Shown here piece after piece: positions 37,820 through 59,103 of a stretch of 64,000 nucleotides of DNA (position 1 is its first letter; the number at the start of each line of letters is the position of its first letter). The translations under genes were made by a program, and so were the position numbers. Source of the stretch: Candidatus Saccharimonadota bacterium (GTDB taxonomy: Bacteria; Patescibacteriota; Saccharimonadia; Saccharimonadales; Saccharimonadaceae); the NCBI GenBank assembly GCA_030528025.1, contig JAUMZP010000001.1:124001-188000 (forward strand), in the 5' to 3' direction. The notes beneath the pieces are model-generated. The model saw only the letters and a list, made by a program, of their open reading frames with translations, had not been told where the DNA came from and ran no database searches.

Positions 37820-37935
37820 CGTTTCAGTGTAGTAATACTTATGCTATAACAATTGAAAAATCCGACAGAACGTGTACACTTATACATAACGTATGGGTAT
37901 ATAAGCACACATGTGTGCAGGCTGAGGAGATAATA

Positions 37936-39171
37936 GTGCAGCGACGAGGTGGGCTGGTGTATGGAGTAGTGGGTGTCCTTGTTGCGGGTGCTCTGTCGGT
38001 GATGTTTGGTGGGGCTGCCCAGGCGCAGCAGTGGCAGATGGTGTATAACGAGGAGTTTACGGCACCACTGTCGAATTGGAAGGTTCTTCAGCAAAATAAA
38101 GATAATTATGGCAAGGAGCATTTGGCATATAGCGCCAATAACGTTGCAGTGACTAACGGTTCTTTGCAAATTACGACCCGGCGTCACTGTGTGTCGAGTG
38201 TGGCTGAGCCACTGGGCGATAGCAACGCCAGCCAAGAGCCGTGCCCGTCTGGCAAGATGACACGCTACCAGAGTGGGCGAGTGGAGTCGGGTCGGGTGCT
38301 CGATGGGCATAAACCATTCCACGTCGAGGTACGAGCGAAGATTAATTGGAATGGCGAGAATGGGACGCGCCCAGCTATTTGGCTGCGCAATAGTGTGACG
38401 CTTGCCAACTGCAGCAACAACAAGCAAGCGAATGACCCTTATGGTGAGCTCGACATGCTGGAGTGGTATTCATGGACGCCGACCTACACATGGTCGACGA
38501 CGCATATTCGCTGCTACCATAGCCCGTCATCGCAGATATGGAAGACGAAGGGGTTAGGACATAGCCGAGAGAACCTCATACCGTCCCCAGTGACGTTGGC
38601 GAACAACTGGCATATCTGGGCGACGGAATATGATGGTGAGACGGTCAGATTCTTCGTGGATAACCAGCCGGTGCTGGTGTATAACTATCGAGCGGGCGAT
38701 GAGAAAAGTCATCCAACTGCTCGGGTCCCAGCAGAAAAACCAGCAAAAATGGGCATGGATGCGAATCAATTCAAGCAAGTCTTTGACGATACGTGGTATG
38801 TTATTCTCAACGATTATGTGGAGTGGAAGAGTGAGGAGCACCCGCCCGACTCATCGAAGAAGTTTGCCAACCAGACCTTCCTCATCGACTACGTCAAGAT
38901 ATACCAAAGTGGTGCTCCGACTACTGGCGAAAAACCATCAACTACCACACCAGAGAAAAAGGACGACAAGAAAGATAAAAAGCCGGGTACCAAACGGATG
39001 ACGGTGAAGAAGAAAAAGAGTGCGTTTACTGCGCAGGGTCCGCTGGCTGAGCTGATGAGCAACTTTGTGCCAGCACTGCTGCTGAGCCTGTGTTTGCTGC
39101 TTATCGCACTAGCTGGCTGGCTGGTATGGTGGTGGCGTCGCCGTCGCCACCGCATTCAGCCTACGCTGTAG
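37936..39171 (+). CDS. Surface-anchored GH16 family glycoside hydrolase
   Basis: 411 aa from GTG at 37936 (GAGGAG seven bases upstream). Signal peptide with cleavage after AAQA (about residue 30). GH16 domain: residues ~36-310, with the catalytic GELDMLEW motif (E171, D173, E176) and the usual W-rich cleft (WLRNSV, WYSWTPTYTWSTTHI). A Thr/Pro/Lys/Asp linker (KKDDKKDKK), a C-terminal helix (VPALLLSLCLLLIALAGWLVWWW) and a basic tail (RRRRHR) follow. GH16 enzymes cut beta-1,3/1,4-glucans, galactans and related polymers. The anchor would hold the enzyme on the outer face of the membrane, where a host-attached cell could attack host or biofilm glycans. Confidence 0.88.
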   Translation: MQRRGGLVYGVVGVLVAGALSVMFGGAAQAQQWQMVYNEEFTAPLSNWKVLQQNKDNYGKEHLAYSANNVAVTNGSLQITTRRHCVSSVAEPLGDSNASQEPCPSGKMTRYQSGRVESGRVLDGHKPFHVEVRAKINWNGENGTRPAIWLRNSVTLANCSNNKQANDPYGELDMLEWYSWTPTYTWSTTHIRCYHSPSSQIWKTKGLGHSRENLIPSPVTLANNWHIWATEYDGETVRFFVDNQPVLVYNYRAGDEKSHPTARVPAEKPAKMGMDANQFKQVFDDTWYVILNDYVEWKSEEHPPDSSKKFANQTFLIDYVKIYQSGAPTTGEKPSTTTPEKKDDKKDKKPGTKRMTVKKKKSAFTAQGPLAELMSNFVPALLLSLCLLLIALAGWLVWWWRRRRHRIQPTL

Positions 39172-53660: not shown

Positions 53661-54213
53661 ATGACCGAACTAACATTAGCATCACGACCCGCTAGTACAG
53701 CGGGTATAGAGGGAATTACCTCACGATATGAGGCAGATCGTGAGGTTGCCGAGAGAGAAGAACGAGTAGCAGCCTTCGACAAGATGGTGGGTGCGCTATT
53801 GCAAGAAGAGCAAGAAAGTAATGCCAGTGAGAGTGGTTTGCTTGGCCAAAGCAGCAATACCGAAAGCAAAAGGTATTTGCCGCAACAAGCAGAATTCGTT
53901 TCGCACTATCTGACTAACCTGCCAATGCACATTATAGTGCGAGATAGTGGAGATGACCGACGAGAAATAACGCTCCAACCTATCCTTCGCGAAGGTGAGA
54001 GTGAGACTACCCTGGCTAGCAGCAAGCAGGTCTATTTCACTGCCCCAGACAAAGCAATAACGGGGGGTGCAGTGTGAGTACTTTCCACCACACAAGCCAG
54101 GGCAGAAGGTGGAAACAACCGGTGTGCGCGATGCGTCAGACCCTGAGCTTGAGAGCCTAAAGGCTATAGTATCTGTAGCCGAACTGCGAGGTGGCAAACC
54201 ATCCTCTCGCTAA
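53661..54213 (+). pseudogene. Hypothetical gene with a frameshift at a run of six G
   Basis: The intact frame gives 138 aa, ending ..DKAITGGAV at 54077. Skipping one G of the run at 54062-54067 lets the frame continue as CEYFPPHKPGQKVETTGVRD, then PELESLKAIVSVAELRGGK and PSSR, stopping at 54213. The continuation has normal composition and no internal stop, so the full gene is likely about 183 aa. Soluble, no known domain; the first ~80 residues are Glu/Ala-rich and helical. GAGGA precedes the ATG. The shift may be real (phase-variable or decaying) or a sequencing error. Confidence 0.55.
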
Positions 54214-54375: not shown

Positions 54376-54894
54376 ATGGAACGAAAAGTATCAGGACCAC
54401 AAGCAGTAACGGCAGAGAACCGAGACGGTACAGACCACGAGAAAGAGGCAAGTCTTGGTGAGGTAACTCGTGCGTTTATTGAAGACATTTTTGCGCAGCA
54501 TCCGGACGCTATGCAACGACGTGACCTTCATCGAGTATGCTGCGATACATCTGTTGAATTTGAGTCGGCAGAATCTGAATATGTTTGCGCAAAGGCAAGT
54601 GTTTATCAAGTCGAGTGGTGGGACAATGCTAACCGAGAGCCTGAACACAAAATTCAGGAGAACCTCGGTTTTGTTCTTAAAAAGGTTGATACAGGAACTG
54701 GCGAAGCGATTACAGAAGACCGATACTTCATCAATCAAAAAGATGGAAAAGTGTACCATATCGTATGGAAAGAAGGACAGACGCCTGAAGCTGCCCAAGC
54801 GTCTGATACATGGCTGCCTGCAACTCGCGAAGGTCTGAGCGACGCAATGGAGCAAATTAGCAAGCTGAATGTCGTTAAGGCACCTCAGGAATAG
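54376..54894 (+). CDS. Hypothetical protein
   Basis: 172 aa with AAGGAG eleven bases before the ATG. Soluble and acidic. Two Cys near the middle (RVCCDT) plus one more (YVCAKA). A likely beta-rich core (YQVEWWDNANREPEHKIQEN; LGFVLKKVDTGTGEAITEDRY) has no family signature. It is more AT-rich than its neighbours. A terminator follows. Confidence 0.55.
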   Translation: MERKVSGPQAVTAENRDGTDHEKEASLGEVTRAFIEDIFAQHPDAMQRRDLHRVCCDTSVEFESAESEYVCAKASVYQVEWWDNANREPEHKIQENLGFVLKKVDTGTGEAITEDRYFINQKDGKVYHIVWKEGQTPEAAQASDTWLPATREGLSDAMEQISKLNVVKAPQE

Positions 54895-55080: not shown

Positions 55081-56370
55081 ATGCAGGATGTGACAGACAC
55101 AGCACGGGCGTCCACGGGTGTGGCGATGCGGTGGAGTATGCAGCAAGTACGGCGTGCTGTGCTGATGTTTGTGGCCGCTGTGGCAGTGCTAGGGCAGCTG
55201 CTTGTACCGCAGGCGAGTGCTATGGCACCGCAGCAGTCCATCATGATGCCAGCCTATAGCTATCCCATGCAGGGTGGCAACAATCAGTATTGGAATGATA
55301 TGGCTAATGTCTCGAGTAAGACGCCCTTTGTAGTGGTTAACCCCTCGAGCGGGCCAGGTACAACGGTTAGCAGTGATTATGTAAAGGCTCTGGCGCGGCT
55401 CGATTCGCTCGGTGTCAAATACATTGGCTACGTCAAGCATGGCCGCCAGACGCGCAATATTGCTGAGGTGGCAGCAGAGATCGACCGCTGGTATGCGCTC
55501 TACCCCAACGTGAAGGGGATTTTCTTTGACGAAGCCGACAACCACAGTAGTGGCCAAAAGACCTGCTATCTGGCCAACCTCTACAACTATGTCAAGGTTA
55601 AACACCCTGGCTCCATCGTTATCCATAATGCGGGCACACGCTTCCTCGGTGAGTCTGTTATGCCTTATGGTGATGTATTTCTCAATGCCGAGACCTCGGC
55701 AGCGCGCTACCTGAGCGATAGCTACTACGACCTAAACCACCCAACTGCCACCAACTTTGAGAAAAACCCAGCCAACGCCTACAAAATGTGGCACGTCATC
55801 CACAGTGTGGGTAGCAACGAGCAGCAGGCCCAGGTGGTAGCTAAGGCCCGCGAGCGCAATGCTGGCTGGGTGTATACGACTTCCGATCGTGGCCCGACCA
55901 CACCAGCCGAGGAGGCAGACCCAAATATCAACCCGTATAATGATTCATCTACCTTGCTGGGTGGTTTGGCTGGCCTGGCGAGTATCCAACGTGGTAATGT
56001 GCCAGTGGGTGCAGCGACGCCGCTCACGGCTGATTGCGCCGACACCTTTGGCCTGAAAGTAACAGCTCAGCCCGCGCCAGCACCTGCACCAGCGCCAAAA
56101 CCTACCCCCAAGCCTGAGGAGAAGAAAAAAGATGACAAGGACAAGAAAAAAGACGAAAAGAAGGACAAGAAAAAGCCGCAGCCAAGCAAAAAGCGCCAGC
56201 AACCGACTGTACGCAAGCAAGAGGAAGGATCCAACTGGACGATCATCATTCTTATCGCTGTGGTAGTAGTTCTCACTGCAGCTGGTGGCGGTGGTGTCTG
56301 GTGGTGGTTTGTTGGCCGCAAGCGCCACCAAGCAAAGAACCGCAGCCGGTATGATAACACGATGATCTAA
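55081..56370 (+). CDS. Surface-anchored spherulin-4-like glycan hydrolase
   Basis: 429 aa. Signal region (VLMFVAAVAVLGQLLVPQASA, about residues 27-47). The Sph4-type barrel domain (residues ~52-290) starts IMMPAYSYP and continues with YIGYVKHGRQTRN, KGIFFDEADN (the acidic pair), VIHNAGT and ETSAARYL. This family is related to GH135/GH114 enzymes acting on galactosamine-containing polymers. An Ala/Pro then Lys/Asp/Glu linker, one C-terminal helix (WTIIILIAVVVVLTAAGGGG) and WWWFVGRKRH tail follow. The anchor design equals that of the GH16 protein at 37936. Some M start codons downstream (M16, M20) are alternatives. Confidence 0.85.
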   Translation: MQDVTDTARASTGVAMRWSMQQVRRAVLMFVAAVAVLGQLLVPQASAMAPQQSIMMPAYSYPMQGGNNQYWNDMANVSSKTPFVVVNPSSGPGTTVSSDYVKALARLDSLGVKYIGYVKHGRQTRNIAEVAAEIDRWYALYPNVKGIFFDEADNHSSGQKTCYLANLYNYVKVKHPGSIVIHNAGTRFLGESVMPYGDVFLNAETSAARYLSDSYYDLNHPTATNFEKNPANAYKMWHVIHSVGSNEQQAQVVAKARERNAGWVYTTSDRGPTTPAEEADPNINPYNDSSTLLGGLAGLASIQRGNVPVGAATPLTADCADTFGLKVTAQPAPAPAPAPKPTPKPEEKKKDDKDKKKDEKKDKKKPQPSKKRQQPTVRKQEEGSNWTIIILIAVVVVLTAAGGGGVWWWFVGRKRHQAKNRSRYDNTMI

Positions 56371-56826: not shown

Positions 56827-56985
56827 GCTCCGAGGCTGTCAGATATGAAGCACTACCAGTATATCCCAAAATGCGGTATACTAAAGAGAGTATATTAACG
56901 CGGCAGTGATAGCGTTGAGGGCTTGCATGAAGATGATGGGTGCGAGCATTCACCCCTGTTACTTGCCGCAAGAAAGGAGCTCTGT

Positions 56986-59103
56986 ATGAGTATTATTAAC
57001 CCAAGCGGCAAAGATGTCTTTGCTGTGACGACGCAGTTATGCGGTCGCCCTCTTACCCTGGAGGTCAACCGCGTTGGTTTTCGCTCGACGGCCAGTGTGC
57101 TAGTGCGGTACGGCGATACGGTGGTGCTGGGTACGGCCCAGGTGGGCACCCGCCCGGTAACGCTGGATTACTTCCCCTTAAGCATCGACTACGAAGAGAA
57201 GTTCTATGCTTCGGGCAAGATTAGTGGCAGCCGCTTTATTAAGCGTGAGGGCCGGCCCAGCGACGAAGCGGTGCTGATTGGCCGCCTGATCGACCGGCCG
57301 ATCCGCCCACTCTTTCCCAAAGGCTACCGCCAGGAAGTGCAGGTGGTGGCTACAGTGCTCAGTATGGACCCGAGCTTCCGCCCCGATATGGTGGCGATGG
57401 TTGCTGCCAGCAGCGCCCTGATGCTAACGGGTACGCCGTTTGATGGGCCGGTGGCGGGTCTGCGCGTGGGCCGGGTGAATGGTGAGTTTACGGCCTTCCT
57501 GACACCAGAGGAGCGTGAGCAGTCCGACCTTGACCTAGTGGTGGCGGGGATTGAGCGCGGCATTACCATGGTAGAAGCTGGCGCTAAAGAAGTACCCGAG
57601 GAGGTGATCGTCGATGCAATAGCCTGGGCGCACCAAGCGATGCAGCCAGCGATTACACTGCAACAAGAACTAGCCGCCAAGGTGGCACCAGCACCGCAAG
57701 AATATGAGCTCGTCTTGCCAAATGAAGACATCCAGGCCGTAGCCAACCAATGGGTTGATGGCAAACTAGGCGAGAAGATCCGCCGCCCATACCCCGAGCG
57801 CAATGAAGTTGTGAATGAAATTCGCTGGGCCTTCCACGAGGCCATGGCCGAGCAGCTCGGCCTTGACGGCGAGGAATACGCCGCGGTGCGTGATGAGTAC
57901 GACGAAGCCTTTACGCTGGCACTACACAACGATGTGCGCCGCGGCATTGTAGAGGAGCGCACCCGCCCCGATGGCCGCGCCCTTACAGAAATCCGCCCGC
58001 TCTCGAGCGAGGTTGGTATTTTGCCACGCACCCACGGGAGCAGCCTGTTTACCCGCGGGGTGACGCAGGGTATGAATATTGTGACGCTGGCACCGCTCAG
58101 CTACGCGCAGCTCGTCGATACCATGGAGGTAACAGAAGGCGAGCGCCGCTATATGCACCACTACAACGCCCCCGGTTATACAGTTGGTGAGGTAAAGCGC
58201 CTTGGTAGCCCTGGTCGGCGTGAAATTGGTCATGGTTACCTAGCGGAGCGCGCCCTGACGGCAGTGCTACCGAGCGAAGAAGAGTTCCCCTATGCCATCC
58301 GCAGCGTGACAGAAATTATGAGCCAGAACGGCTCCACCAGCATGGCGGCCACCTGTAGTAGTTGCTTGGCCCTGATGGATGCTGGTGTGCCCATCAAAGC
58401 CCCGGTTAGTGGTATTGCTATGGGCTTGATGATGGATGGTGACACGCCCTACGTACTGAGTGATATTGCCGACGCCGAGGACTTTGCTGGTGACATGGAC
58501 TTTAAGGTGACGGGCACGAGCAAGGGTATTACCGCCCTGCAGATGGATATGAAGGTGCATGGTCTGCCAGTGCAGGTGCTGCGCCAGGCGCTCGAGCAAA
58601 GCAAAGCTGGCCGCGTCCATATCCTAGAGCACATGCTGAGTGTGCTGCCAGCGCCACGTAAAGAACTCAGCCCCTATGCGCCGCGTATCGAAAAGCTCAA
58701 GATTAACCCGGATAAAATTGGTGCTGTTATTGGCAAGGGTGGTGAAACTATCAACAAAATCACTAGCGAAACTGGTGCCGAGGTGGATATTAAAGAAGAC
58801 GGCCTAATTACCATTGCCAGCCCCAATGGTGAGGCGATTGAGAAGGCGCTGGCCTGGATTAAAAGCCTGGTGGAAGAGCCCGAAGTTGGTCGTACCTACA
58901 CCGGCACCGTCGTGACGATTAAGGACTTTGGTGCCTTTGTAAACATCCTGCCTGGCGTGGATGGGATGGTGCATATCTCGAAGCTCGCCAAGGGCCGAGT
59001 TGGTAAGGTGACAGATGTCGTGCAAGAAGGCCAGACCGTGCAGGTGAAGATCACCGGCATTGACGAGCGCGGCAAGATTAATCTGACGATGATCGGATTG
59101 TAG
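56986..59103 (+). CDS. pnp: Polyribonucleotide nucleotidyltransferase (PNPase)
   Basis: 705 aa from the ATG at 56986 (AAAGGAG seven bases upstream). It has two RNase PH domains (first: GDTVVLGTAQVGTRPV; second, catalytic: DTMEVTEGERRYMHHYNAPG and FPYAIRSVTEIMSQNGSTSM), a linking alpha domain, a KH domain (INPDKIGAVIGKGGETINKI) and an S1 domain (TVVTIKDFGAFVNILPGVDG). It degrades RNA from the 3' end with phosphate; Orn (28906) would finish the oligonucleotides. A promoter TATACT lies near 56877. Confidence 0.96.
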   Translation: MSIINPSGKDVFAVTTQLCGRPLTLEVNRVGFRSTASVLVRYGDTVVLGTAQVGTRPVTLDYFPLSIDYEEKFYASGKISGSRFIKREGRPSDEAVLIGRLIDRPIRPLFPKGYRQEVQVVATVLSMDPSFRPDMVAMVAASSALMLTGTPFDGPVAGLRVGRVNGEFTAFLTPEEREQSDLDLVVAGIERGITMVEAGAKEVPEEVIVDAIAWAHQAMQPAITLQQELAAKVAPAPQEYELVLPNEDIQAVANQWVDGKLGEKIRRPYPERNEVVNEIRWAFHEAMAEQLGLDGEEYAAVRDEYDEAFTLALHNDVRRGIVEERTRPDGRALTEIRPLSSEVGILPRTHGSSLFTRGVTQGMNIVTLAPLSYAQLVDTMEVTEGERRYMHHYNAPGYTVGEVKRLGSPGRREIGHGYLAERALTAVLPSEEEFPYAIRSVTEIMSQNGSTSMAATCSSCLALMDAGVPIKAPVSGIAMGLMMDGDTPYVLSDIADAEDFAGDMDFKVTGTSKGITALQMDMKVHGLPVQVLRQALEQSKAGRVHILEHMLSVLPAPRKELSPYAPRIEKLKINPDKIGAVIGKGGETINKITSETGAEVDIKEDGLITIASPNGEAIEKALAWIKSLVEEPEVGRTYTGTVVTIKDFGAFVNILPGVDGMVHISKLAKGRVGKVTDVVQEGQTVQVKITGIDERGKINLTMIGL

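Follow-up and report, generated by a model that had tools for sequence, protein, structure and literature searches.

The open reading frame at positions 55081 to 56370 of the window, the 64,000-nucleotide stretch of Saccharibacterium DNA analyzed here, encodes a secreted enzyme of the GH135 (spherulin-4/Sph3) family in which the catalytic acids are present, and its C-terminal tail resembles that of a GH16 protein from the same window. No sortase motif precedes the hydrophobic helix of either tail, and on the simplest reading of the sequences a sorting signal would have been exchanged at two loci for one shared membrane tail. The catalytic part belongs to a known family; what is new is the tail, as a variant of surface anchoring carried by two enzymes.

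The GH135 enzyme

The genome containing the window comprises 1.03 Mb on 15 contigs. The following features were assigned to the spherulin-4 protein, with the catalytic residues chosen by conservation among 20 aligned proteins:

55081..56370, + strand: spherulin-4/GH135 enzyme, intact open reading frame of 429 amino acids
Residues 1-47, + strand: signal peptide, recognized by eye
55237..55890, + strand: Spherulin4 catalytic domain, residues 53-270 (Pfam PF12138, E 6e-39)
55528..55533, + strand: Asp150, candidate nucleophile, and Glu151, both in an FFDE motif
55690..55692, + strand: Glu204, candidate acid/base
56116..56229, + strand: K/D/E spacer, residues 346-383
56230..56307, + strand: hydrophobic helix (residues 384-406), then WWW (residues 407-409)
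56308..56367, + strand: basic tail, residues 410-429, with 6 K/R and 1 D/E

An AGAGAG stretch lies immediately 5' of the start at 55081, and a second candidate start is found at 55126. The PF12138 match scored 134.4 bits against a cut-off of 30.2, which bears out the identification of a spherulin-4 enzyme made in the sequence-only reading. That reading had also placed the protein in a GH135/GH114 group, of which the GH135 half stands; among the Pfam matches down to E 0.1 there was no GH114 family. When the PDB was searched by sequence, two Sph3 entries were the sole clear relatives (E 4e-13). An AlphaFold model was built from the 20 aligned proteins (mean pLDDT 86.6), and the barrel fold of this predicted model was most like that of Sph3, which ranked first in Foldseek (E 2e-14, TM 0.73/0.76) and in a second structure comparison (Z 25.9, rmsd 2.5, 232 aligned residues, 28% identity), where the next entry was a GH191 enzyme at Z 15.2.

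Asp150 was invariant in 20/20 aligned proteins, Glu151 was found in 18 (Arg in locus L041 of genome G004, Gln in L145), and Glu204 in 19 (Asp in L142); all three are kept in two phage relatives. Asp150, Glu151 and Glu204 are present in a protein whose assignment the sequence-only reading had made dependent on its catalytic acids. By sequence, Asp150 aligns with the Asp of the Sph3 FFDE motif. Judged by its spacing, Glu204 is probably the counterpart of Sph3 Glu222, and the catalytic Asp of Sph3 is probably Asp166, as opposed to the Asp196 of the printed record. The residues printed in PMC12054363 are Asp196 and Glu222. GH135-type hydrolysis of an alpha-1,4-linked GalNAc polymer is predicted for the window enzyme.

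The tail shared with a GH16 protein

In the spherulin-4 protein, the catalytic domain is followed by a proline-rich stretch, the K/D/E spacer, the helix, VWWW, and a basic end containing RKRH. The same tail order was found in a GH16 protein about 16 kb away, and the two genes form no operon:

37915..39171, + strand: GH16 enzyme with the same tail (Pfam PF00722, E 1.5e-5); signal peptide recognized by eye
38953..39057, + strand: K/D/E spacer of the GH16 protein
39058..39168, + strand: hydrophobic helix, WWW, and basic tail of the GH16 protein

The PF00722 score was 25 bits against a cut-off of 22, and the acids of the motif ELDMLE, which fits the GH16 pattern ExDxxE, were invariant in 7/7 aligned proteins. 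The predicted model (pLDDT 79.7) was nearest to laminarinases, and mucin-acting GH16 enzymes ranked lower in its fold list.

The last 46 residues of both proteins align as SN[WF]...VWWW..RxRH with a score of 68. Two controls were run on this alignment, 2,000 full shuffles and 2,000 shuffles that kept the hydrophobic-then-basic layout; their maxima were 45 and 57, respectively, and 0/2000 reached 68 in either. A tblastn search with the spherulin-4 tail recovered the GH16 tail at E 5e-9. The earlier claim of a common linker-helix-WWW-basic tail is upheld, and we conclude from the alignment scores that the likeness of the two tails exceeds chance. At the DNA level, the alignment of the tails scored 35 and none of 300 codon shuffles exceeded 30, a slight similarity, and recent copying between them is therefore not claimed. 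Four places in the genome have runs of ten RAN codons, and two of them are these tails, so spacer composition alone is less telling. Insertion of the tails into the membrane is predicted from hydropathy only: in the spherulin-4 protein a hydrophobic helix (best mean hydropathy 2.70 over 17 residues) is followed by a basic tail. The spacer of this protein carries a net positive charge (17 K/R, 10 D/E), which is atypical for the outward-facing side of a helix.

To look for further carriers, we read each of the 77 TGGTGGTGG places in the genome. Five closed frames have WWW within 60 residues of the stop and a hydrophobic stretch as well. Besides the two enzymes, these are two short frames (42 and 51 amino acids) and a 226-amino-acid frame, L072, whose last 78 residues contain two hydrophobic stretches and no K/D/E spacer. 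Only the two enzymes, among long frames at the 77 TGGTGGTGG places, combine the K/D/E spacer with the helix-WWW-basic tail. The genome search proposed with the sequence-only reading thus returned no third long frame, and a larger kit of tethered enzymes was rejected.

A profile of both tails (A4) was run over 394 genomes of the family. It gave its own proteins 169 and 130 bits and nothing elsewhere above 29.4 bits; at E 0.001, matches were obtained in 49/394 genomes, the window genome included. We read 29 of the other matched loci (L154-L182), taking the longest frame over each center, although for L171 the frame taken is probably not the one matched by the profile. Most of these matches fall well inside a protein. 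Three (L158, L161, L168) are helices at the C terminus that lack WWW, with L161 ending in AAWWFLLR. A tblastn search with the spherulin-4 tail gave matches in 14/151 genomes. The spacer style is not special to the window genome, since K/D-rich spacers were also seen in the relatives at L110 and L116, ahead of VPKTG and LPKSG.

Sorting signals in relatives

Both window tails were read for an LPxTG-like motif before the helix, and neither xPxTG nor LAxTG occurs in them. Sortase-type signals of the relatives and of the paralogue were likewise read by eye. A DNA pattern for the sortase motif occurred at 9 places, fewer than in its reversed control (24). All four complete ends of saccharibacterial spherulin-4 relatives carry a sortase-type signal, namely TPNTG (genome G031), APGTG (G093), APNTG (G081), and LAETG (G110); the G004 protein (L041), which a contig end cuts, was left out of the count. 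Among GH16 relatives, the end is LADTG in G110 and LPQTG both in G032 and in one of the two copies of G055. The other G055 copy (L095) was left out because it is cut at the locus end, as was a distant GH16 protein in G122 (L097) that has neither helix nor sorting signal. The two G055 copies (L095 and L099) are closely similar, one cut at its end and the other at its start.

The window genome itself has, on the contig that includes the window, a second GH16 protein, a paralogue with 49% identity that ends in LANTG, and it has two sortase genes. The neighbor of this paralogue ends in LADTG: it is a secreted repeat protein (L101 499-1938; contig C9 of genome G000, about 398998-400437), and by eye similar repeats are seen in both proteins. 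A secreted 291-amino-acid frame with lectin-like repeats (GNLVLYSHTGTAQWASN) also adjoins the paralogue (L098 2820-3692).

Gene order ties the loci to those of relatives. The spherulin-4 gene of G031 is flanked by truB- and epimerase-like genes and, at its other end, by a pnp-like gene (names by eye). The window shows this arrangement too, and its pnp-like gene is

56923..59103, + strand: pnp-like gene (named by eye), 82% identical to the neighbor of the G031 spherulin-4 gene

Genes resembling rpoD and polA (names by eye) enclose the GH16 gene both in G110 and in the window, and the G110 spherulin-4 gene has other neighbors than in the window. At both loci, the small genes inside the shared flanks differ between window and relative. 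The G031 motif TPNTG aligns with QPSKK of the window spherulin-4 protein.

Because the relatives and the genome's own paralogue are sortase-type and two sortases are present, the two enzymes appear to have lost a wall-sorting motif and to share a membrane tail; we infer from its spread among relatives that the sortase state came first and is ancestral. Another reading of the tail is that it is an aberrant sorting signal, processed by sortase or another protease, which would leave the enzymes wall-linked or released. The helix-then-basic layout is that of a sorting signal, the genome has two sortase genes, and the aligned G031 position is a sorting motif; against this, xPxTG and LAxTG are absent from both tails, and TPNTG faces QPSKK. 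NCBIfam anchor families matched the tails below cut-off only, a weak argument given that the four sortase-type relatives failed the cut-off too. We regard processing of this kind as improbable. Less probable again is that the likeness of the tails is accidental or came about through parallel drift in low-complexity sequence: their slight DNA similarity and the K/D-rich spacers that also precede sortase signals in relatives would fit such a history, but no shuffle in either control reached the protein score, and VWWW and RxRH are nearly in register.

Distribution, substrate, and proposed role

Spherulin-4 proteins were found in 6/394 family genomes, in five of 61 genera, and a relative of the GH16 protein in 5/151 genomes. 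They occur together in two genomes of one genus, one being the window genome, and no linkage is claimed since two genomes are too few. A tree built from 20 proteins placed the six sequences of the family in a clade of 10 rows (support 100/100) that also contained Streptococcus sp. UBA6071, Selenomonas sp. F0473, and two Cardiobacterium, apart from the other ten; the tree neither shows nor excludes a single origin of the six. Streptococcus, Cardiobacterium, and Selenomonas live in the mouth. Few named organisms were sampled: of 76 pattern matches, 18 loci passed.

One 2996-amino-acid open frame of Cardiobacterium hominis contains both GH16 (E 8.7e-18) and Spherulin4 (E 1.9e-36) domains. A separate 3796-base contig (C1 of G000, L102) encodes GH16, Ig-like repeats, and an RTX-like end, as judged by eye; its DNA is 66-83% identical to stretches of Cardiobacterium loci, and it is possibly a bin contaminant or a transferred gene.

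As a tblastn query, the catalytic domain matched 5 phage records, which represent 3 distinct phages, as well as 10 plasmid records, all below 33% identity, and a mobile origin of the enzyme is not supported. In a Rothia dentocariosa phage from the human oral cavity, a spherulin-4 domain gene lies two genes after minor tail genes. Gene 21 of Rothia phage Spartoi (L183 5797-6885), annotated as hypothetical and located near minor tail genes, encodes a Spherulin4 domain protein (E 1.7e-35), possibly a depolymerase of a phage of an oral actinobacterium. A Streptococcus thermophilus phage carries such a gene between its holin and lysin genes.

Sph3 is described as specific for fully acetylated polymer (PMC12054363). 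A pel locus is reported in streptococci, actinobacteria, and part of the S. thermophilus strains (PMC7112168). According to PMC12345266, aggregates of Streptococcus intermedius depend on GalNAc-rich Pel; both Sph3 and PelA disrupt these aggregates, an effect that Ega3 lacks, and Pel biofilms of P. aeruginosa are not disrupted by Sph3. Taken together, the C. hominis fusion, the phage genes, the distribution of pel, the S. intermedius aggregates, and the specificity of Sph3 point to a neutral, GalNAc-rich Pel-like polymer as the likeliest substrate of the spherulin-4 enzyme. Such a biofilm polymer fits the evidence better than the host-surface glycans proposed earlier; of the proposed kit for these glycans, the tail common to two enzymes remains, whereas the kit has only two members and the GH16 paralogue on the same contig is sortase-type.

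Two further readings concern what the enzymes are for. They may serve feeding, through uptake of oligosaccharides cut from glycans of matrix, fungal, dietary, or salivary origin, and play no part in host contact. We hold this possible but the less likely account. In its favor, it is generally assumed that the majority of Patescibacteria obtain energy from the products of their glycoside hydrolases (PMC11665869), and the GH16 model lies nearest to laminarinases, above mucin-acting enzymes; we found no evidence against it. That the spherulin-4 enzyme instead trims a polymer made by the Saccharibacterium itself, as Sph3 does in fungal galactosaminogalactan synthesis, seems unlikely. Sph3 is reported to be bound to the membrane and required for synthesis (PMC12054363), but the neighboring genes read are housekeeping-type (by eye) or encode proteins without a Pfam match above cut-off, and the relatives found in phages and in Cardiobacterium suggest that polymers are attacked. 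Two proteins encoded between the rpsO-like and spherulin-4 genes (53661-54077 and 54376-54894) had no Pfam or NCBIfam match at E 0.1.

On balance, we favor as probable a secreted, membrane-held, endo-acting GH135 alpha-N-acetylgalactosaminidase whose tail replaced a sortase signal, as in the GH16 protein, and which together with the latter loosens a mixed matrix. The signal peptide would export the spherulin-4 enzyme, placing its catalytic barrel outside the cell; the proline-rich and K/D/E-rich spacer would carry the barrel through the wall, and the helix ending in VWWW, with the basic tail, would hold the enzyme in the Saccharibacterium's own membrane. The shared tail would have replaced the ancestral sortase signal of this enzyme, and a tail of the same kind that of the GH16 protein. 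The two would then most likely loosen the mixed biofilm matrix around the cell, with GH135 acting on a GalNAc-rich Pel-like polymer and GH16 on beta-glucan or a related polymer. Several observations count against this account: no polymer gene cluster was recognized beside the spherulin-4 gene, the two genes stand about 16 kb apart, spherulin-4 genes are rare in the family and seldom accompany the GH16 relative, the small genes inside the shared flanks differ at both loci, the spacer is net positive, and the DNA of the two tails is only slightly similar. More speculatively, and in our view rather doubtfully, the tail could be a movable, sortase-independent display module, put on two matrix-cutting enzymes in one Saccharibacterium lineage in place of wall-sorting signals. 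A GalNAc-polymer hydrolase and a glucanase would thereby act as a fixed pair in the membrane, at the point where the bacterium touches its host cell.

The two enzymes may bear on how epibiotic Saccharibacteria pass through the matrix to their host. GalNAc-rich Pel, made by Streptococcus intermedius, is a testable substrate, and the seeming exchange of wall for membrane anchoring at two loci amounts to a natural experiment. In the open-licence literature, we found no paper with both Saccharibacteria and spherulin, and surface-anchored hydrolases of Saccharibacteria appeared in no title or abstract start among the matches listed.

Known systems resemble the pair in part. Sph3 of Aspergillus clavatus (GH135; PDB 5c5g, 5d6t) has the predicted fold and the aligned FFDE Asp in common with the window enzyme, which differs in being bacterial, in its C-terminal helix and K/D/E spacer, and in a gene not seen inside a polymer cluster. 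Endo-beta-1,3-glucanases (laminarinases) of GH16, such as Thermotoga maritima 3b01, provide the nearest fold for the partner (E 1.4e-16), although identity is only about 22%. The protein of Cardiobacterium hominis NCTC10426 unites both types of catalytic domain found in the window pair, but in a single very long polypeptide whose C-terminal end is without a tail of the window type. The sortase-type spherulin-4 proteins of Saccharibacteria (G031, G110, G081, G093) are 33-47% identical to the window protein where aligned, and they end in a sorting signal where the window protein has none.
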